Shown piece after piece: positions 2,808-16,863 of a DNA stretch of 20,325 bases. The translations under genes and the position numbers were made by a program. The notes under the pieces were generated by a model, which made no database searches, was not told the DNA's origin, and saw only the letters and a list, made by a program, of their open reading frames with translations. The stretch spans positions 1 to 20,325 of IMG/VR virus record IMGVR_UViG_3300017727_000229, one strand, 5' to 3'. Every line of letters starts with the position of its first letter. The stretch's first letter is position 1. This DNA is from a virus.

Positions 2808-3344
2808 ATGGCAAATACAACCTTTTCAGGACCGGTCATTTCTAAAAATGGCTTTATAACTTTTGGACCTGGATCAGCAAAAGCAATTAACTCAACTGGT
2901 TTAGCTGCAAATACATTAAATTTGACAGTTAATGACCATGCAGGAAGATTGTTAATTTCTCAAGACGCAGACGGTATTTACAAGTTACCAACTATTAACA
3001 GCAATGCTAATGGAGTAACTGCAGGAGATACTGATTATAATAACCCAAATAACATTGGTGCAAGTTTTTATTTTTACATAGACACTGTAGCAACAGATGT
3101 ACAAATCATAACTGATGGAACTGATAAGTTTACAGGTGCAGCTATGATTGCAGTTGATGATGGAGCTAAAAAAGCTTTCTTTCCAGCTGCAGCAAATGAT
3201 GTTTTATCTATGAATGGAACTACTACTGGTGGTATTGTTGGATCTGTGATTCAAGTTACTGCTTTAGAAACAGCTCAATACTTGGTACACAATACTTTGA
3301 TCTTAGGCTCAGGAACTATTGTTACTCCATTTAGCGACACGTAA
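2808..3344 (+). CDS. Putative abundant virion protein, unknown role
   Basis: 178 residues, ATG 7 bases after AGGAG. It starts MANTTFSGPVISKNGFITFGPG, a start shared by many marine phage structural proteins. It is then rich in Ala, Thr, Asn and Gly with beta-type alternation (DAGI-like DADGIYKLP, SFYFYIDTVATDVQIITDG, YLVHNTLILGSG). There is no membrane segment, cysteine or catalytic motif. It is framed by a possible promoter (2690) and a strong terminator (3354), so it looks like an independent transcription unit, a layout often used for proteins needed in many copies. A head decoration or fibre protein is possible; the structural class is the limit of what can be supported. Confidence 0.65.
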   Translation: MANTTFSGPVISKNGFITFGPGSAKAINSTGLAANTLNLTVNDHAGRLLISQDADGIYKLPTINSNANGVTAGDTDYNNPNNIGASFYFYIDTVATDVQIITDGTDKFTGAAMIAVDDGAKKAFFPAAANDVLSMNGTTTGGIVGSVIQVTALETAQYLVHNTLILGSGTIVTPFSDT

Positions 3345-3353
3345 TAAATAATT

Positions 3354-3385
3354 AGTGTGGGCTTCGGCCCACACTCAAAATTTTT
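3354..3385 (+). terminator. Intrinsic terminator with UUCG tetraloop
   Basis: AGTGTGGGC (3354-3362) pairs perfectly with GCCCACACT (3367-3375) around TTCG. In RNA this is C(UUCG)G, an exceptionally stable tetraloop. CAAAATTTTT follows, giving a T run at 3381-3385. It lies 9 bases after the stop of the 2808 gene and ends where the AAGGAG ribosome site (3386-3391) of the next gene begins. Transcription of the next genes therefore needs read-through or another promoter. Confidence 0.85.
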
Positions 3386-3397
3386 AAGGAGAAAATT

Positions 3398-3718
3398 ATG
3401 GCATCAAAAGGTGATATACAAGCTACAAGATCTTCAGCGGCAGCAGGTGCGGCAGCAATTGTTTCACAGCCTATAAGATTAAGAGCTATTTCAATAGCAT
3501 CAAATGGTGGCGGTGCAGGTGTTTTAGAACTTACAACTACTTCTAATAGTGGTGATACATTATTATTTGCGGATGTTCCAACAGGAGATGTCTTTACATT
3601 GAATTTTCCTGAAGATGGAATTTTATTTCCAAAAGGAATTTTTTGTAAAACAAAAACAAATGTAACTGCTTACACATTATTTACAGATAAGTATTCTGGA
3701 CCAGGTTTAACAAGTTAG
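3398..3718 (+). CDS. Small virion protein, first of three tandem paralogs
   Basis: 106 residues, ATG 6 bases after AAGGAG. One beta-type domain with the line PIRLRAISIASNGGGAGVLELTTTS, then DVFTLNFPEDGILFPKGIF and NVTAYTLFTDKYSGPGLTS. The same line recurs at the C-terminus of the next gene (VRLRGLSV, YTMNMPEDGLVFPNGVF, NVTAYTLFTEKFSGEGLT) and, more distantly, in the third gene (PGDGILFKNDVYV). The three therefore arose by tandem duplication. This is the minimal form: one module with no insertion. The module is common in short-tailed marine phages beside head-tail adaptor genes; its exact place in the virion is unknown. It is cytoplasmic until assembly, with no signal or membrane segment. Confidence 0.7.
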   Translation: MASKGDIQATRSSAAAGAAAIVSQPIRLRAISIASNGGGAGVLELTTTSNSGDTLLFADVPTGDVFTLNFPEDGILFPKGIFCKTKTNVTAYTLFTDKYSGPGLTS

Positions 3719-3726
3719 AGGATTAA

Positions 3727-4809
3727 ATGGCTTCAGTTGATTCTCAAGCAACAAGGTCTACACTTCTAAGTGTAGATACTACGCTATCAGAAAATATTAA
3801 CGCAACACAGAATTATATTCCTGTTGCCAGTACCACTAACTTTTCAACTAGTGTTGTTGCGGAGATTGAATCAACTAATGAGGTTGTGAGTTTTGATACA
3901 ATTACTATACAAAAATTAAAACAAACTGGTTTTGCTAGTTCATGGCCTTTAAGAAGAGCTACAAAAACCTCAAGCGCTGGAACAGCACCAGATGGAACAA
4001 ATACAGCAGTTTCAATAGTTCCTACTGTAGATAACAACACTCATAGAATTGATCAAAACCCTGCGGGATTAGCTTCAAGCACTGAATATACTTTCAGTGT
4101 TTATGGAAAACAAAATGGTTACACAGGTCTATCTTTAACTGTTGGACAAGGGTCTAACGTTCCTCAAAATACCACTGCATATTTTGATTTAAATTCTGGA
4201 ACGGTAGCATCAACTGTATCGGGAGTAAGTGCAGCTATACAAGATGCAGGTAATGGGTGGTTTAGATGTGCTATAACATTAACAACTCCAGGTTCTGTTG
4301 TTGTTGACGGAATTTTAATTGGTGTAGGTTCGGATTCTTCTACTTTTTCTTTTGCAGGAAATACAACTGATGGAATTTTAATATGGGGACCACAGCTAGA
4401 AATTTCTTCAAGCGTTACAGGTTTTTTACCAAACGAAACTGATTCAACAACTTATCCAGGTTTAACAACAGTTACAAGAGGCGTAAACGGAACAACTGCA
4501 CAAGCAGCAAGTTCTGGTGATTCAATTCAACAGTTACCTTTTGCTACACCGGTAGACATACCTGTAAGATTAAGAGGTTTATCTGTTTCTCCAGATGGAA
4601 CAGGTGCAGCAAGATTAACTTTATGTGATAACAATGGAGATAGTATATTAGATATAGACACTCCTGATGGAAAAGTTTATACTATGAATATGCCTGAAGA
4701 TGGATTAGTATTTCCAAATGGTGTATTTATATCAAATACAGATAATGTTACTGCATATACATTATTCACTGAAAAATTTTCAGGGGAAGGTTTAACACAT
4801 GGCAGTTGA
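3727..4809 (+). CDS. Virion protein with nested carbohydrate-binding-like domain
   Basis: 360 residues, second of three tandem paralogs. Residues 1-12 (MASVDSQATRS) match the start of the first paralog and residues 271-357 match its C-terminal module. Between them lies a split domain: residues about 22-59 (NYIPVASTTNFS, AEIESTNEVVSFD) and 245-266 (GLTTVTRGVNGTTAQAASSGD) form the two halves of the phage IPVA...F / TRGVNGT domain. Into that split is inserted a jelly-roll carbohydrate-binding-like module, residues about 60-236. Its marks are TAPDGTNTA, THRIDQ, YTFSVYGK, AYFDLNSGTV, GNGWFRCAITLT and ILIWGPQLE. Such modules occur in phage tail fibres and adhesins. The protein probably adds a sugar-binding head to an otherwise structural subunit. 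Family recognition is good; ligand is unknown. Confidence 0.75.
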   Translation: MASVDSQATRSTLLSVDTTLSENINATQNYIPVASTTNFSTSVVAEIESTNEVVSFDTITIQKLKQTGFASSWPLRRATKTSSAGTAPDGTNTAVSIVPTVDNNTHRIDQNPAGLASSTEYTFSVYGKQNGYTGLSLTVGQGSNVPQNTTAYFDLNSGTVASTVSGVSAAIQDAGNGWFRCAITLTTPGSVVVDGILIGVGSDSSTFSFAGNTTDGILIWGPQLEISSSVTGFLPNETDSTTYPGLTTVTRGVNGTTAQAASSGDSIQQLPFATPVDIPVRLRGLSVSPDGTGAARLTLCDNNGDSILDIDTPDGKVYTMNMPEDGLVFPNGVFISNTDNVTAYTLFTEKFSGEGLTHGS

Positions 4810-5098
4810 TGTAGCTAGTACTTTTACAGAAGCTGAAACTACTACTGTTCAAAGTGGTAGAACTAGAGTTTATGGTGTGTATTATACAAACACAGCAACT
4901 TCTGGTGATTTAGTTATTAGAGATGGTGGAGCATCAGGAACTATTAAATTAAAAATTAGAAGTCCGGGTGTTGCAGATTCTTATCAAGTAGATGTACCAG
5001 GAGATGGAATTTTATTTAAAAACGATGTTTATGTTGGCTTTACAACTGAACAAATAACTAGCTGTACAGTTTTTCACAGCGGAGGAAGTAATACTTAA
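4799..5098 (+). CDS. Small virion protein, third tandem paralog
   Basis: 99 residues. The ATG lies inside the end of the previous gene (11-base overlap), so translation is probably coupled. One beta-type domain: GRTRVYGVYYTNTATSGDLVIRDGG, IKLKIRSPG, YQVDVPGDGILFKNDVYVGF, CTVFHSGG. It aligns with the modules of the two preceding genes mainly through the (P)xDGILF motif and the flanking strand order, but is the most diverged of the three. Its stop overlaps the next start (TAATG at 5096-5100). Position directly before the gp4-like adaptor suggests a role at or near the head-tail junction, but this is inference. Confidence 0.65.
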   Translation: MAVDVASTFTEAETTTVQSGRTRVYGVYYTNTATSGDLVIRDGGASGTIKLKIRSPGVADSYQVDVPGDGILFKNDVYVGFTTEQITSCTVFHSGGSNT

Positions 5099-5832
5099 TG
5101 GCAACTTCAGGAACTACAACTTTTGAATCAAATTTTTTTATTGATGATATAATCACTGAAGCCTACGAAAGAATAGGTAGATTTGATTATTCAGGTAATG
5201 ATATAAAAACTGCAAGACGTTCTTTAAATATAATGTTTCAAGAATGGGGTAATAGAGGACTTCATTTTTGGGAAGTAAAAAATAATTCACTTACATTAGT
5301 TGATGGTAAATCAGAATACACAATGTTTAGATCAACTGGGGATGTCCCGGTAGGTGTTACACCAGATGCAACTGCTGTTTTTGGTGTTGATGATATTTTA
5401 GAAGCTGTATATAGAAATTCAGATAATGTTGATTTTTCTTTAACTAAAATTAATAGATCAAACTACCAAGGTTTGTCATCTAAAACTGACACAGGAACAC
5501 CAACACAATATTTTGTTCAAAGATTTATAGATAAAATAACAATCACTTTATATTTAACTCCAGGATCCACTGAAGCCGGAAACTTTATTAACTATTATTA
5601 TGTTAGCAGGATTCAGGATGCAGGAGCCTATTCAAACAATGCTGATGTACCATATAGATTTGTACCTTGTATGGTATCAGGACTTGCATATTATTTATCA
5701 CAAAAATTTTCACCACAAAGAACACAAGAATTAAAATTATTGTATGAAGATGAAATACAAAGAGCTCTTGAAGAAGACGGTTCTTCATCAAGTACATTTA
5801 TAACTCCAAGAACCTATTATGAAGGATTATAA
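5098..5832 (+). CDS. Head-tail adaptor, P22 gp4-like packaged-DNA stabilisation protein
   Basis: 244 residues. The helical N-terminus (IDDIITEAYERIGRFDYSGNDIKTARRSLNIMFQEWGNRG, about 14-55) is the hallmark of the P22 gp4-like adaptor family. So is the following LHFWEVKNNSLTLVDGKSEYTM strand. The middle has VDDILEAVYRN and GTPTQYFVQRFIDKITITLYLTPG. A C-terminal helical part follows (YRFVPCMVSGLAYYLSQKFSPQRTQELKLLYEDEIQRALEED) and then the basic tail TPRTYYEGL. Proteins of this family bind the bottom of the portal ring, close it after packaging and receive the nozzle. Length is above P22 gp4 but usual for the marine family. Start overlaps the previous stop by one base. Confidence 0.85.
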   Translation: MATSGTTTFESNFFIDDIITEAYERIGRFDYSGNDIKTARRSLNIMFQEWGNRGLHFWEVKNNSLTLVDGKSEYTMFRSTGDVPVGVTPDATAVFGVDDILEAVYRNSDNVDFSLTKINRSNYQGLSSKTDTGTPTQYFVQRFIDKITITLYLTPGSTEAGNFINYYYVSRIQDAGAYSNNADVPYRFVPCMVSGLAYYLSQKFSPQRTQELKLLYEDEIQRALEEDGSSSSTFITPRTYYEGL

Positions 5833-6386
5833 TGGGAAATTTATCTAGAGGAAAATACGCACAATTTATTTCAGACCGTTCAGGAATGGCATTTCCATAT
5901 AAAGAAATGGTTGTTGAATGGAATGGTGCACGTGTACATGTTTCAGAGTATGAACCAAAGCAACCACAGTTAGAACCAAAACCAACAGTTGCTGATCCAC
6001 AAGGTCTACAATTTGCAAGACCTGCAAGGACTGAACCTGCTGTTTTAATTTTATTACAAACAAGTCCTTTTGAAACAATTAAGTATTCTGGAAACACTTA
6101 TGTAAATGTTTTTTCTCCTAATCATGATAGATCAACGGGAAATACAATTAGATTTAGAGGTGCAACAGATGCAACTGGTTTTAATAATGTGCCAGTAATT
6201 GATGGTGTAACAGATATTAGTAGTGCAAGTGGTTTTAGTATTGTAGTTGGAAAAATAAATTCTAGTGGTATAGTATCTGATACTACAAATTATTATTACT
6301 TTCAAAGCACTAGTTCAGCGACAAATGGTAATGTAATTGGAGGAGGAGATGGTTGTACAGCAGGACCTGTTAACCTACAAGCATAA
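5832..6386 (+). CDS. Tail/head-completion accessory protein with SHG-type beta domain
   Basis: 184 residues in two parts. Residues 1-66 hold a conserved marine phage block (KYAQFISDRSGMAFPYKEMVVEWNG, VHVSEYEPKQPQLEPKP), which probably folds with or onto the neighbouring adaptor. Residues about 88-182 form a short beta domain: VNVFSPNHDRSTGNTIRFRG, PVIDGVTDIS, FSIVVGKINS, SSATNGNVIGGGDG, GPVNLQA. Its pattern (strand, hxxxTG-x-x-IRFRG, glycine-rich end) also occurs in the gp10-like protein at residues 108-182. It lies between two adaptor-like genes, with one-base overlaps on both sides, so coordinated synthesis is expected. Function is inferred as virion assembly accessory; no catalytic motif is seen. 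Confidence 0.7.
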   Translation: MGNLSRGKYAQFISDRSGMAFPYKEMVVEWNGARVHVSEYEPKQPQLEPKPTVADPQGLQFARPARTEPAVLILLQTSPFETIKYSGNTYVNVFSPNHDRSTGNTIRFRGATDATGFNNVPVIDGVTDISSASGFSIVVGKINSSGIVSDTTNYYYFQSTSSATNGNVIGGGDGCTAGPVNLQA

Positions 6387-9082: not shown

Positions 9083-9253
9083 ATGGATAGTTTATATACT
9101 ACAACTTACATCGGTAACAAACCAGGTGCAGAGGATATTTATACTCATGCCGAAACAATAGATAATATTATAACGATTGAATCTGCAGTTTTAGCAGGTC
9201 CAGTGACATTTTCAGAAACTGTAACCGTAACAGGAAATTTGGTGATTGTATAA
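9083..9253 (+). CDS. Short fibre-associated protein
   Basis: 56 residues, ATG 6 bases after AAGGAG (9072-9077, within TAAGGAGAATAA). The translation begins MDSLYTTTYIGNKPGAED, has a short helix around HAETIDNIITIESAV, and ends AGPVTFSETVTVTGNLVIV. The C-terminal half has the VTVTGNL strand pattern found at the start of many phage fibre and long-tail-fibre shafts. The stop shares a base with the fibre gene start at 9253, so co-translation with it is likely. It may be a fibre adaptor or a partner of the following fibre. The ORF is short, but ribosome site, coupling and typical strand content support it as real. Confidence 0.6.
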   Translation: MDSLYTTTYIGNKPGAEDIYTHAETIDNIITIESAVLAGPVTFSETVTVTGNLVIV

Positions 9254-10350
9254 TGAGTGAAATAAGAGTTGATAAAGTTAGTCCTAGAACAGGTACTTAT
9301 ATTTCTTTAAATACAGTTGGTCAAAAAAACATCATCATCAATGGTGACATGAGCATAGCACAAAGAGGAACCTCACAAGCAAGTATTAGTGCAAGTGGAT
9401 ATTATACAGTTGATAGATTTCAACAACAAGTAAGCTCTATGGGAACTTGGACACAATCACAATCAACAGATGTACCAACTGGTCAAGGTTTTGCATCATC
9501 ATTAAAAATAGATTGCACAACTGCAGATGCTTCACCATCAGCAAGTGATTTGATTCTTGTACAGCAAAAAATAGAAGGTCAAATGTTACAGTATTTAAAA
9601 AAAGGAACTTCATCTGCTGAAAGTACAACTTTATCTTTTTGGGTGAAATCTAGTAAAACAGGAACTTATATTGCAGAATTATTTGATAATGATAATTCAA
9701 GACAAGTATCACAATCTTATACAATTTCATCTGCTAATACTTGGGAAAAGAAAACTATAACTTATACTGGAGATACATCTGGTGCATTAGATAATGATAA
9801 TGCACAAAGTTTACAATTAGTATTTTGGTTAGGTGTAGGAAGTAATTTTTCATCAGGTACTTTACAAACTTCTTGGACAGCAAATACAAATGCAAACAGA
9901 GCAGTAGGTCAAGTCAACCTTGCAGATAGCACAGCTAACGAATGGTATGTAACCGGAATCCAACTTGAGGCAGGTTCGGTAGCCAGCGACTTTGAATTTT
10001 TACCCGTTGATACTAATATTCAAAGGTGTCGTAGATATTTTGAAAAATCTTCTAACATAGATTCTGCTTTAATAGTAACAAGTCAAGGTATTGTTGGAAT
10101 AAGAGATGGAACAGCTTCAGCAGTTCCTAGGTATTACAATATTCAATATTCTGTTGAAAAAAGAACTACACCAACATTAACAACTTATGACTTGTTGGGT
10201 GCGACAGGTAAATGTAGGAGAGATTCTACCAACGGAGTAGCAACTAGTCCTTTTAGTACAGGTTCGACTTGTTTTAATACCACTTATACAGCAGGAGGAG
10301 TTAGTCATTATGGAATTTTCTTTGGTTGGTATTCGGAGGCAGAGTTATAA
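9253..10350 (+). CDS. Tail fibre with jelly-roll carbohydrate-binding-like domain
   Basis: 365 residues. Residues 1-14 (MSEIRVDKVSPRTG) are an anchor sharing the V-D pattern with the fibres at 10535 and 11392. Residues 26-260 are a conserved phage tail-fibre domain: NIIINGDMSIAQRGTS, VDRF, TQSQSTDVPTGQGF, IEGQMLQYLKKGTSSAESTTLSFWVKSSKTGTYI, TWEKKTITYTGDTSGALDND, VFWLGVGSNFSSGTLQTSW, EWYVTGIQLEAGSVASDFEFLPVD, RCRRYFEKS. This is a concanavalin/jelly-roll fold, used to bind glycans. The remaining 105 residues carry two cysteines (near 319 and 340) and probably form the variable receptor-contacting tip. Role: host recognition at the cell surface. Followed 2 bases later by a small gene that may encode its chaperone. 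Confidence 0.82.
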   Translation: MSEIRVDKVSPRTGTYISLNTVGQKNIIINGDMSIAQRGTSQASISASGYYTVDRFQQQVSSMGTWTQSQSTDVPTGQGFASSLKIDCTTADASPSASDLILVQQKIEGQMLQYLKKGTSSAESTTLSFWVKSSKTGTYIAELFDNDNSRQVSQSYTISSANTWEKKTITYTGDTSGALDNDNAQSLQLVFWLGVGSNFSSGTLQTSWTANTNANRAVGQVNLADSTANEWYVTGIQLEAGSVASDFEFLPVDTNIQRCRRYFEKSSNIDSALIVTSQGIVGIRDGTASAVPRYYNIQYSVEKRTTPTLTTYDLLGATGKCRRDSTNGVATSPFSTGSTCFNTTYTAGGVSHYGIFFGWYSEAEL

Positions 10351-12364: not shown

Positions 12365-14308
12365 ATGCTACAAAAACTTAATTTCAAACCGGGTTTCAAT
12401 AAACAAGTCACAGAATCAGGCGCAGAATCTCAATGGGTAGATGGGGACTTTGTTAGATTTAGGTATGGCTTACCTGAAAAAATAGGTGGATGGTCACAAC
12501 TTACCAATTCTAACAAAACTTTACCAGGCGCAGCGCGTGCACAACATTCTTTTGTATCTTTAAACGGAGAAAAATATGCAGCGATTGGTACATCGCAAGG
12601 TTTATTTTTATATTATAATGAGCAGTTTTATGATATTACTCCTTTAGATACAGCCATCACCGGAGCAACCTTTGATGCTACATCAGGTTCAGCAACGGTC
12701 ACGGTAAATAAAACATCACATGGTCTACAAGAAGGACGTTATGTAACTTTTTCATCTGTTACCGTCCCAACAGGATCTGGTTATGCAACAACCGATTTTA
12801 CTGATAACACTTTTGAAATTACCAATGTTACAGTTAATTCGTTTGATATTATAATGCCTTCAAATTCAGCGGGTACTACATCAGGCACGGGTTCAACAAC
12901 AATTGGTCCTTATGTTATTGTTGGTCCAACTTTTCAAACAGCTAACTTCGGTTGGGGAACATCGTATTGGAATGATTCAACCTGGGGAACAGCAAGAACT
13001 GCAACAAGTGTAGTCCTTGATCCGGGTTTATGGTCTTTAGATAATTTTGGTCAAATACTTATTGCAACTATTTTAAATGGTAAAACATTTACATGGGATG
13101 CAGGAGGTCCAGATGGAAAAGGTGCAAGAGCAACGGTTATGGCTAATGCACCTACTAAAACAAGATTAACACAAGTATCGGATAGAGATAGACATGTATT
13201 TCATTTTGGAACAGAAACTACAATCGGTGATACAACGACTCAAGATCCAATGTTTATAAGATTTTCAAACCAAGAAGATTTTAATACATATACTCCAACT
13301 GCAACCAACACTGCAGGAACCTTTAGATTAGATAAAGGAAATGTTATCGTTGGAGCCGTATCCGGTAAAGATTATACATTAGTATTAACTGATTCATCAG
13401 CTTATGTTATTCAGTTTGTTGGTCCACCTTTTACTTTTTCTGTTAGGCAGGTGGGTACAAATTGTGGTTTAATTGGTCAAAACGCTTTATCATATTCTAA
13501 TGGTGTTGTATTTTGGATGTCAGGTGAAGGTGGATTTTTTATGTATGATGGTACTGTTAAAATGCTACCTTGTCTTGTTGAAGACTTTGTATTTACAACA
13601 ACTGGAGATAATTTAGGGGTTAATTACAGTTCTAGTCAACTAATATATTGTGAACATAATACTTTATATAATGAAATAAACTGGTTTTATCCAAAAGCCA
13701 ACACAACTCAAATAAATAGATGTGTTACTTATAATTATGGTGAAAATTGTTGGACAACATCATCTCTTTCTAGAAGTTCTTATGTTGATCAAGGAGTTTT
13801 TAATAACCCTTACGCAACCGATTATGATAAAACTTTAACTCCTACTTTTCCAATACAAGGAATAAGTAATTTATTCGGTGCATCAATTTACTATGCTCAT
13901 GAAATAGGAACTGATCAAGTGAATAGCATTACTGGTACAACTTCTATTAATGCTTCTATTCAATCAGGTGATTTTGATATTAGTGCAAGGCAAAGTGCTT
14001 TAGGTCAAACAACAGGTGCAGCTGATTTTAGAGGAGATGGTGAATTTATTATGTCTATGAAAAGATTTATACCAGATTTTAAAGTTCTTACAGATGAAGC
14101 TAAAATTACTTTATTATTAAACAATTATCCAAGTGATAAAGCAGTTGGTTCAAATCTTGGTCCCTTTACAGTTTCATCATCTACTGATAAAGTAGATACA
14201 CGTGCTAGAGGAAGATTACTTGCAATTAAAATAGAAAATGATGATGTAGGTCAAACTTGGCGTTATGGCACATTAAGAGTAGATATAAAACCAGATGGAA
14301 GAAGATAA
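12365..14308 (+). CDS. Tail hub/nozzle protein, P22 gp10-like
   Basis: 647 residues. The N-terminus (MLQKLNFKPGFNKQVTESGAESQWVDGDFVRFRYGLPEKIGGWSQL, 1-46) and the C-terminus (RARGRLLAIKIENDDVGQTWRYGTLRVDIKPDGRR) are the hallmark ends of the P22 gp10-like packaged-DNA stabilisation family, whose members make the tail nozzle below the adaptor ring. A short beta domain with SHGLQEGRYVTFS is inserted at residues about 108-182 and recurs in the 5832 protein. The middle has propeller-like repeats (LDPGLWSLDNFGQILIATILNGKTFTWD, VGAVSGKDYTLVLTDSSAYVIQFVG, LSYSNGVVFWMSGEGGFFMYDG). Start: ATG without a clear ribosome site, conserved by the FKPG block. The gene is separated from the adaptor genes by the fibre array. 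Confidence 0.87.
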   Translation: MLQKLNFKPGFNKQVTESGAESQWVDGDFVRFRYGLPEKIGGWSQLTNSNKTLPGAARAQHSFVSLNGEKYAAIGTSQGLFLYYNEQFYDITPLDTAITGATFDATSGSATVTVNKTSHGLQEGRYVTFSSVTVPTGSGYATTDFTDNTFEITNVTVNSFDIIMPSNSAGTTSGTGSTTIGPYVIVGPTFQTANFGWGTSYWNDSTWGTARTATSVVLDPGLWSLDNFGQILIATILNGKTFTWDAGGPDGKGARATVMANAPTKTRLTQVSDRDRHVFHFGTETTIGDTTTQDPMFIRFSNQEDFNTYTPTATNTAGTFRLDKGNVIVGAVSGKDYTLVLTDSSAYVIQFVGPPFTFSVRQVGTNCGLIGQNALSYSNGVVFWMSGEGGFFMYDGTVKMLPCLVEDFVFTTTGDNLGVNYSSSQLIYCEHNTLYNEINWFYPKANTTQINRCVTYNYGENCWTTSSLSRSSYVDQGVFNNPYATDYDKTLTPTFPIQGISNLFGASIYYAHEIGTDQVNSITGTTSINASIQSGDFDISARQSALGQTTGAADFRGDGEFIMSMKRFIPDFKVLTDEAKITLLLNNYPSDKAVGSNLGPFTVSSSTDKVDTRARGRLLAIKIENDDVGQTWRYGTLRVDIKPDGRR

Positions 14309-14807: not shown

Positions 14808-15040
14808 TGGCAAATGAAGATTTATTAAAAATACACTGTACAACTACAGTGATTATTAGAAATACTAAAACCAATAAAATATATAAAGATGAAACAGAAA
14901 AAGAGTCCGATATAGCTGATCCTAATACTGAAACAACAGCAGAACATATTGCTCAGGATGTTGAAATACAGGTTTCACCTAAAGGATTGAATGCACTACA
15001 GAAAGTAATGAATCAAAAAAATGATAAATCAGACTCCTAA
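14807..15040 (+). CDS. Small conserved hypothetical protein
   Basis: 77 residues. MANEDLLKIHCTTTVIIRNTKTNKIYKDETEKESDIADPNTETTAEHIAQDVEIQVSPKGLNALQKVMNQKNDKSDS. A short beta pair (VIIRNTKTNKIY) leads to an acidic DPNTxTTAEHIxxDVxIxV segment known from marine phage tail-hub regions. A charged helical tail follows. One cysteine; no metal site. The last 20 bases overlap the glycosyltransferase gene in another frame. Function unknown. Confidence 0.65.
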   Translation: MANEDLLKIHCTTTVIIRNTKTNKIYKDETEKESDIADPNTETTAEHIAQDVEIQVSPKGLNALQKVMNQKNDKSDS

Positions 15041-15962
15041 AGGCGGAACAGAACTTCAATTTGAATATTTAAGAAAATATGTTGATCCTAAGTTATTGGA
15101 TCAAGTATCTATTTGCACATCGGTGCCTGAAAAAATTCCGTTAAATCCAAATAAATTAAATATACTTTGGCAAAAAAATTCATATGATCAAGGTAACTTA
15201 GCACCATGGTTTCAAGATAAATCTAATCATCATAAATATGATTGGTATGTATTTAATTCTAATTGGAATTTTGAAAAATTTATAAAGGTATTTGATCTAC
15301 CAACAGAAAAATGTTTAGTAATTAAAAACGGAATAGATACAATTGAACCTATACCTACTATTTATAAAAAAAATGATCCTATAAAAATTATACATCATTG
15401 CACACCTTGGAGAGGACTAAGTGTTTTATTAGGTGCAATGCAACTTGTTAAAAATCCATTAATAACTTTAGATGTTTATTCATCAACAGAAGTATATGGT
15501 AAAAGTTTTTATGATCAAACAGATGATCAATACAAAGAACTTTATGAACAAGCAAAACAATTAAGTAATGTAAATTATATTGGATATAAACCCAATGAAT
15601 ATATTAAAGAAAATTTAAAAGATTATAGATTATTTGTTTACCCAAGTATCTGGGAAGAAACATTTTGTATATCAGCATTAGAAGCTATGGCTGCAGGTCT
15701 ATATTGCGTAATGACAAACTTTGGTGCGTTATATGAAACTTGCGCTGAGTTTCCAATGTATATTCCGTACTCTAACAACTATGAAAATTTAGCTAGAAAA
15801 TTTGCTGCTGGAATAGAGGTTGCTGCACAATCACTTGAAGCACCTGGAATCCAGGATCATTTAAAAATGCAAAAAGATTATGTTAATAGATTCTATAATT
15901 GGAATGTTAAATCAATAAATTGGACTAGATTTTTACAAGGAGCAATTAATGCAAAACAATAA
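15021..15962 (+). CDS. GT-B glycosyltransferase (GT4-like)
   Basis: 313 residues. The PKGGTELQ motif (6-13) is the glycine-rich acceptor-side loop of GT4 enzymes. IHHCTPWRGLSVLLGAMQLV (124-143) is the linker-to-donor-domain start, with Arg131 in the usual donor-phosphate position. FVYPSIWEETFCISALEAMAAGLYCVMTNFGALYET (205-240) contains the EX7E motif (Glu213 and Glu221) that binds the nucleotide sugar. It probably transfers a sugar from an activated donor to an acceptor in the cytoplasm; donor and acceptor are unknown. The enzyme lacks a long leading strand before GGTE, a compact form known in marine phages. It overlaps the previous gene by 20 bases and the next glycosyltransferase by 14, so the two are likely co-expressed. 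Confidence 0.83.
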   Translation: MINQTPKGGTELQFEYLRKYVDPKLLDQVSICTSVPEKIPLNPNKLNILWQKNSYDQGNLAPWFQDKSNHHKYDWYVFNSNWNFEKFIKVFDLPTEKCLVIKNGIDTIEPIPTIYKKNDPIKIIHHCTPWRGLSVLLGAMQLVKNPLITLDVYSSTEVYGKSFYDQTDDQYKELYEQAKQLSNVNYIGYKPNEYIKENLKDYRLFVYPSIWEETFCISALEAMAAGLYCVMTNFGALYETCAEFPMYIPYSNNYENLARKFAAGIEVAAQSLEAPGIQDHLKMQKDYVNRFYNWNVKSINWTRFLQGAINAKQ

Positions 15963-16863
15963 ACCTATTTGGTTCAATGAAAATAATAAAATTAATCCCA
16001 ACAAAGATACTTATCAAACAGAAAAAGTAGAAAAAGTAGATTCTTCTATAACTGAAATTGATTTAAGTTCATCAAAAAAAAATTACAAAATAATGGTATG
16101 TACCCCTTGTCATAGTGAAGTGTCTATGCATTACACGCAAGCAGTATTAAAGTTTCAATTAGATTGTATAAGAAAAAATATACTGGTTAGTTTTACCTTA
16201 TTAAAATCATCATTAGTTACTCAAGGAAGAAATTTATGTGTGGCTGAGTTTTTAAATCATGAAGACAATTATGATTATTTATTATTTATTGATTCTGATA
16301 TTTCTTTTAAAAGTGAAACTATATTTAAAATGATTGAACAAGATAAAGATTTAATTGCATGTCCCTATCCAATGAAGACTTTTGACACAGATAAAATGTG
16401 GAAAAAAATAAAAAAAACAGATGTGGTTAAAACAGAAAAAGATATGTTATCATCAGGATATATGTATCCAATTAAAGTTGATGAAAATGAATTAATAGTT
16501 GATAAAGGAGTTATGAGAGTGACTCATGCGCCAACTGGTTGTATGCTTATTAAGAGAAATGTTATAGAAAAATTAATTAAAAAACACCCTGAATTAGAGA
16601 TATATCAACCAACTGTTATTAATGGTAAAGAAGTTAAAAAAGAAAATTTTTATAATCTATTTGATACATTACACGACACAGAAACTAAAAGATACTTTGG
16701 AGAAGATTTTGGATTTTGTCAAAGATGGACAGATATAGGTGGAGAAGTATATGTTTATATAATGGACTATATATCTCACATAGGAGATCATGAATATTGT
16801 GGTAGATATTATGATCAATTAGTTAATTTAAAACGTGTTGACGTTGATAAAAAAATCAAATAA
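15949..16863 (+). CDS. GT-A fold glycosyltransferase-like protein
   Basis: 304 residues, AAGGAG (15937-15942) 6 bases before ATG. After a charged 45-residue leader, YKIMVCTPCHSEVSMHY opens a Rossmann-like GT-A domain. The metal-binding motif is LLFIDSDISF with Asp115 and Asp117 as DXD. Further marks are QGRNLCVAEF (92-101), HAPTGCMLIKRNVIEKL (193-209), GEDFGFCQRW (251-260) and HIGDHEYCG (277-285), the last giving His277 as the likely C-terminal metal ligand. It probably uses an NDP-sugar and a divalent metal. Together with the GT-B enzyme it may build a two-sugar decoration on virion or host glycans. The target is not identified. Confidence 0.78.
   Translation: MQNNKPIWFNENNKINPNKDTYQTEKVEKVDSSITEIDLSSSKKNYKIMVCTPCHSEVSMHYTQAVLKFQLDCIRKNILVSFTLLKSSLVTQGRNLCVAEFLNHEDNYDYLLFIDSDISFKSETIFKMIEQDKDLIACPYPMKTFDTDKMWKKIKKTDVVKTEKDMLSSGYMYPIKVDENELIVDKGVMRVTHAPTGCMLIKRNVIEKLIKKHPELEIYQPTVINGKEVKKENFYNLFDTLHDTETKRYFGEDFGFCQRWTDIGGEVYVYIMDYISHIGDHEYCGRYYDQLVNLKRVDVDKKIK

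Follow-up and report, generated by a model that had tools for sequence, protein, structure and literature searches.

The protein encoded at 3727 has one domain nested inside another and that pair nested inside a third: a jelly roll of carbohydrate-binding type splits a small frame domain, which itself interrupts a copy of a virion module. Its jelly rolls are exchanged in place between genomes, the frame stands as an empty socket in the head-tail adaptors of sister phages, and frame and jelly roll together occur in other carrier genes. We interpret the protein, with a probability of roughly 0.6, as a recombining glycan adhesin plugged into a duplicated virion module, near the neck or the capsid vertices.

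Genome setting and domain architecture

The window, by which we mean the whole stretch of DNA analysed (20,325 nucleotides), is a 20.3-kb virus record. From the major capsid protein gene (1259), the order is several small genes followed by the genes at 3398, 3727, 4799, 5098, 5832 and 6386. The 5098 gene (5098-5832, plus strand) encodes a head-tail adaptor-like protein (phrog_12985) without the frame insertion seen in sister phages at about residues 91-162, and the 6386 gene encodes a second adaptor (Pfam SU10_adaptor). By adaptor, the nearest isolates are the Pelagibacter phages HTVC023P and HTVC027P; both have a gene order similar to that of the window, HTVC023P with additional intervening genes, and the window virus is a marine podophage of this type. 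HTVC023P-type phages are reported to be widespread among viruses of SAR11, a dominant marine bacterial group (PMC9599517). Farther along, two consecutive glycosyltransferase-like genes, recognized by eye at 15021-16863, make an unusual pair for a structural region.

A reading made from the sequence alone had proposed that three tandem genes next to the head-tail adaptor encode copies of one module, the middle copy carrying a nested insertion. The gene order bears out the location, and all three open reading frames are present on the plus strand: 3398-3718 (106 aa), 3727-4809 (360 aa) and 4799-5098 (99 aa). The first encodes a single module, modeled as a β-sandwich (pLDDT 81). The second encodes a cassette-bearing paralogue in the order module, frame, jelly roll, frame, module. 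By sequence, its residues 1-12 (MASVDSQATRS; 3727-3762) are the N-terminal strand of the module. They are followed by the near-invariant N-terminal half of the frame (residues 17-60, 3775-3906; TLSENINATQNYIPVASTTNFSTSVVAEIESTNEVVSF; frame profile positions 1-47) and by the interchangeable jelly roll (residues 61-240, 3907-4446; confident core 62-236), which is delimited by the family match, the model and the exchange boundaries. The C-terminal half of the frame (residues 243-271, 4453-4539; profile positions 43-71), ending GLTTVTRGVNGTTAQAASSGDSIQQLP, then leads into the C-terminal part of the module (residues 273-357, 4543-4797).

That the 3727 protein begins and ends as the 3398 module, as proposed, is confirmed by a QATRS motif common to the N termini of both products and by 52% identity over about 85 aa between its residues 273-357 and residues 19-105 of the 3398 protein (E = 7e-29; E = 4e-26 for the match within the window's own DNA). 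Joined together, residues 1-14 and 269-360 give a single alignment with the 3398 protein of 106 columns at 51% identity. In the 3398 model, QATRS forms the first strand and the next strand starts at residues 20-26, which places the cassette in the loop that joins the first two strands of the module. The frame is recognized inside the 3727 protein by the motifs IPVAST...F and TRGVNGTTA. Its profile hits complete cassettes as two in-order pieces, from position 1 to about 43-48 and from about 40-43 to 71, and the jelly roll lies between the two. This two-piece match, continuous in adaptors, bears out the earlier view that the domain is split by the jelly roll.

Residues 62-236 are predicted as a β jelly roll (pLDDT about 80-90), whereas in the same model, built from 12 sequences, the frame and module are mostly below 50. 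The homology of the two ends with the 3398 protein is therefore taken from sequence; low-confidence strands at 281-287, 295-300 and 306-312 fall where strands 26-35, 41-47 and 54-60 of the 3398 protein would map. Neither module, frame nor jelly roll has a Pfam match above the cut-offs, and no relatives of the 3727 protein were found in bacterial or archaeal genomes.

Relatives of the module and their distribution

The third protein, whose start overlaps the end of the 3727 gene, is a diverged member of the module family. Its similarity to the module is weak in BLAST (33 aa) and clear in profile-profile comparison (95% probability, E = 2.8e-8, 76 columns); HTVC027P gp63 is 55% identical to it. 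It had been read as a third, diverged copy. The distant relationship holds, but since the 4799 type also includes gp63 and a gene of phage 023Pt_psg01, it is not simply a third product of the same event. The stretches read from HTVC027P and 023Pt_psg01 showed no 3398-type gene, and the phage records in GenBank gave a single weak relative of the 3398 protein, in HTVC023P. The 199-aa gp42 of HTVC023P (L102:3429-4028) matches both the 3398 and the 4799 profiles in its C-terminal part and, judged from these matches, is possibly a link between the two types.

The 3398-type bare copy is found in nearly all related loci. A search with the 3398 protein gave 54 loci with a readable interval between that gene and the adaptor, a non-random sample chosen by similarity to the 3398 protein, with adaptors recognized by their frame-free (plain) form. 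In this sample the interval is empty in 38 loci, holds a 4799-type gene in 7, a cassette gene in 7 and both in 2. Several loci (L118, L120-L122, L124 and L125) have the 3398 gene, a 4799 gene 84-88% identical to that of the window and the adaptor without a 3727 gene, the arrangement of the window with its cassette gene missing. The stretches read from HTVC027P and HTVC023P contained no cassette-bearing paralogue; every locus with a cassette is a metagenome contig, and no examined isolate has a cassette.

A tree of modules has one branch, with 100/100 support, that separates the bare copies from the cassette-bearing ones. This supports the gene duplication that had been proposed and indicates that the sampled cassette genes come from one duplicated lineage, not from repeated local duplication. 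The proposal of a stepwise nested gain fares less evenly: the nesting, and a middle domain that exists unsplit on its own, are both seen, but no intermediates of a stepwise order were found, as neither a bare second copy nor a 3727-type gene with an unsplit frame was present at any locus read. Because frame and jelly roll also occur together in unrelated carriers, the unit may have come as one piece, and any order of insertions is an inference.

The frame domain in adaptors and other carriers

The unsplit frame, of about 70 residues, is inserted in many sister-phage adaptors at about residues 89-162, HTVC027P gp64 included. Its profile matches adaptors of 309-319 aa (for example, one of 313 aa) as one continuous piece, whereas adaptors of 242 aa lack the frame, as does that of the window. 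The unsplit frame of the adaptor is thus the empty site for a jelly roll. This continuous form also matches phrog_11439, phrog_1101, phrog_4406 and phrog_9851. At the frame insertion site of the sister phages, the window has a variable adaptor loop (5328-5387, plus strand), where DNA identity to its relative L004 falls to 81% with gaps. The adaptor of phage 023Pt_psg01 (L104:7697-8791, 365 aa) bears a further, different added domain, an extension of about 120 residues at its N terminus.

The next gene downstream of the adaptor, the counterpart of 5832, also encodes an inserted frame in several sister phages. Three consecutive genes, the 3727-type gene, the adaptor gene and the next one, therefore accept the frame; in the loci read, a jelly roll within the frame was seen in this region only in the 3727-type gene. 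The 3′ half of the window's 5832 gene (6048-6347) is hypervariable relative to L004, at 70-85% DNA identity between near-identical flanks. The product of 5832 shares a domain (phrog_28581, with a weak Pfam E1_FCCH match) with residues 96-184 of the protein encoded at 12365-14308, so a variable neck-region domain recurs elsewhere in the window genome.

Frame plus jelly roll also occurs outside this region. In the J-type central tail protein L235 (phrog_31, E = 5e-80), the pair is inserted between the protein's own domains; its DNA is 81% identical to the window over 724 bases, a match with both ends within the frame, and 80% identical to the window's jelly roll. The L226 and L236 proteins are near-identical outside the cassette and have different jelly rolls in the same frame, the L226 gene lying downstream of a phrog_213 portal gene (T4-type) and a phrog_45 tube gene. 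Some 3727-type proteins (L092, L219 and L234) have tandem double cassettes. In one contig, a 3727-type start continues into a J-type gene with 96% identity to L235 (L051:4388-5324; L235:554-1490); it may be a real fusion or a chimaeric contig misassembled through the frame, and because it may be chimaeric it was left out of the evidence. A frame-nested jelly roll is not common to all phages, as the distant phages examined have the jelly roll in other contexts. We tentatively suggest that the frame could be a general exchange socket, whose near-invariant halves would be both structural stalk and recombination arms and through which jelly-roll adhesins may be traded across phage types, among podophage neck or vertex proteins, T4-type structural proteins and J-type tail fibres of marine phages.

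Position in the virion and function of the jelly roll

In the proposed mechanism, the 3398-4799 genes would encode a small family of β-sandwich virion proteins, placed between the major capsid gene and the head-tail adaptors. The duplicated copy, 3727, would be the plug-in adhesin carrier, with the frame in the loop after the first strand of the module and a carbohydrate-binding-type jelly roll inserted in the terminal hairpin of the frame. Docking of the protein in the particle would fall to the module, and the projecting jelly roll would bind glycans on the host surface.

The virion location, which we infer to be a neck collar or a capsid vertex, can be read in two ways. The 3398 protein may be the base, and the 3727 protein the spike-bearing version, of a capsid-vertex head spike like that of the gene transfer agent RcGTA instead of a neck collar. 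The jelly roll matches the RcGTA head-spike fibre, the genes come after the capsid gene, and the 3398 protein resembles pentameric nucleoplasmin-like folds, the HFTV1 turret and the KHP40 cement protein. With Z no higher than 7.9, however, these matches are middling and, as model comparisons, ambiguous; they single out no one virion position, and the presence of the frame in the adaptor and the next gene of sister phages points to the neck. We regard the vertex spike as a credible alternative, at somewhat below even odds.

The jelly roll belongs to phrog_5939 (E = 2e-22 over residues 68-252), a family with 355 matching phage records that is widespread in tail fibres and other virion proteins, with 26-34% identity among the matches listed. 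Its closest solved relative by sequence is the RcGTA head-spike fibre Rcc01080 (E = 9e-20 over 166 aa), which a binding study ties to capsular polysaccharide (PMC10218006; PMC7296036). By structure, the closest solved folds are Pseudomonas phage E217 gp45 and Pa193 gp46 (Z 17-19.6, 183 residues, r.m.s.d. 2.5-2.6 Å), and the model of residues 62-236 also matches CBM22, CBM4 and CBM16 at Z 10-11. Elsewhere in the window, a probable tail protein of 365 aa (9253-10350) has a jelly-roll-like stretch recognized by eye (SFWVKSSKTGTY...WYVTGIQLEAG) and no Pfam match.

The relation to Rcc01080 and the CBM-like fold together lead us to favour a glycan-binding adhesin exposed on the particle. Of the glycan-binding head that had been suggested earlier, the carbohydrate-binding-like jelly roll is upheld by sequence and fold, but carbohydrate binding is a property predicted from homology. 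The jelly roll could instead be an assembly or stabilizing domain that varies by co-evolution with other virion proteins, and the entries of its best structural matches, E217 gp45 and Pa193 gp46, do describe them as baseplate or structural proteins. Yet by sequence its best match is a spike fibre that binds capsule (PMC10218006), the exchange of alleles down to about 30% identity is easier to reconcile with an exposed binding head than with a packed interface, and the 3727-type gene is absent from most related loci. A purely structural role is thus unlikely.

Exchange of jelly rolls

DNA identity between the window and L004 is 97-100% over 2808-3888, 43-82% over 3888 to about 4480 and 95-100% from there to about 5320; overall, both flanks are about 99% identical. 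L006 and L008 have the same pattern of similar flanks and dissimilar jelly rolls. The comparison of the window with L015 is the mirror image, as the cassette has at most 2 differences per ten codons and the module behind it up to 14. At the protein level, the jelly rolls of window/L015 and L008/L015 are 97-98% identical and the modules only 70-73%; for L006/L073 the values are 93% and 69%. Among 16 cassette genes, 10 pairs combine modules of at least 85% identity with jelly rolls below 65%, and 3 pairs show the opposite. Approximately-unbiased tests on the jelly-roll tree reject the groupings given by modules or carriers, namely L006+L008 (p = 2e-4), L013+L015 (7e-7) and L226+L236 (7e-4), and weakly that of the window with L004 (0.043). 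Alleles with identity as low as about 30% are swapped between identical flanks.

Protein-level conservation is highest in the two frame halves (87%). At fourfold-degenerate sites of divergent pairs, which are non-independent, they have 63-65% identity versus 50% in module and jelly roll. This conservation fits crossovers within the frame, which we propose as the probable mechanism from these sequence comparisons, although the excess synonymous identity could also reflect constraint on the DNA. A search for DNA repeats that might explain the exchange gave only short direct ones (13-21 nt), and none of these lies on both sides of the jelly roll. Homologous recombination within the frame would be possible because nearly invariant halves flank jelly rolls that differ; it would swap whole jelly rolls between genomes, occasionally between unrelated carrier genes, and each swap would change binding specificity with assembly undisturbed.

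Two other accounts of this pattern were considered. The swaps might be metagenome assembly chimaeras joined at near-identical frame sequences, since the frame halves are similar enough to mislead assembly and L051 does begin as a 3727-type gene and continue as a J-type tail gene. Each false swap, however, requires two joins within one contig, the combinations recur in separately named assemblies (L006/L007, L004/L005, L013/L014 and L092/L095, some of which may share reads), and swaps are seen in at least five backgrounds and two carrier types, making this account improbable. Faster divergence of the jelly roll under host-driven selection, with no recombination, would fit the window/L004 and L006/L008 comparisons, where identity is low within the jelly roll and high around it, but it is ruled out on its own for window/L015, L008/L015 and L006/L073, whose jelly rolls are alike and modules unlike, and together with the topology tests these reverse pairs leave it scarcely credible as the sole explanation of the exchange.

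Comparison with known systems and implications

Rcc01080 (PDB 6tb9) has a homologous jelly roll, is displayed on the capsid and was shown to bind host capsule (PMC7296036; PMC10218006). Its Ile/Leu-Gly N-terminal peptide anchors on a separate base pentamer (PMC7296036), whereas the jelly roll of the 3727 protein is nested in a frame inside a virion-module copy; an (I/L)-G repeat is absent from the N terminus of the 3727 product, which starts MASVDSQATRSTLLS. E217 gp45 and Pa193 gp46 share the jelly-roll family and fold, but are annotated as baseplate proteins. The closest counterparts in isolates are the syntenic module relatives HTVC027P gp63 and HTVC023P gp42 and the adaptor gp64 of HTVC027P with its unsplit frame.

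The 936 lactococcal siphophages likewise have CBMs on the neck passage structure, the major tail protein and evolved Dit proteins, with variable modules on a constant scaffold, the neck included. These are other phages, folds and carriers, and the available part of that source describes no comparable double nesting through a reusable frame (PMC6669499). No PHROG or Pfam hit in the window suggests the BppU-like ring domain and coiled coil of the 936/P335 neck passage type. Shuffling of phage receptor-binding and neck domains also exchanges binding domains between near-identical scaffolds, but the illustrated neck exchange concerns C-terminal domains, whereas here the domain is internal and bounded by the halves of one small domain (PMC10684548). 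The addition of CBMs to structural proteins (PMC6669499) and the shuffling of binding domains (PMC10684548) are thus already known. In the open-access literature, we found no description of a binding domain nested in a reusable socket and exchanged in place in several unrelated carriers.

The same literature yielded neither a host receptor for HTVC023P-type phages nor binding or virion data on this phage group. The clearly bounded, exchangeable domain of about 180 aa is a concrete candidate for the host specificity of HTVC023P-type phages and can be expressed alone. The frame, as a socket, could mark such heads in unannotated virion proteins. The architecture offers a clean natural case of a phage changing its binding head without disturbing assembly, and exchange of the head is a modular way to alter what the particle may stick to.
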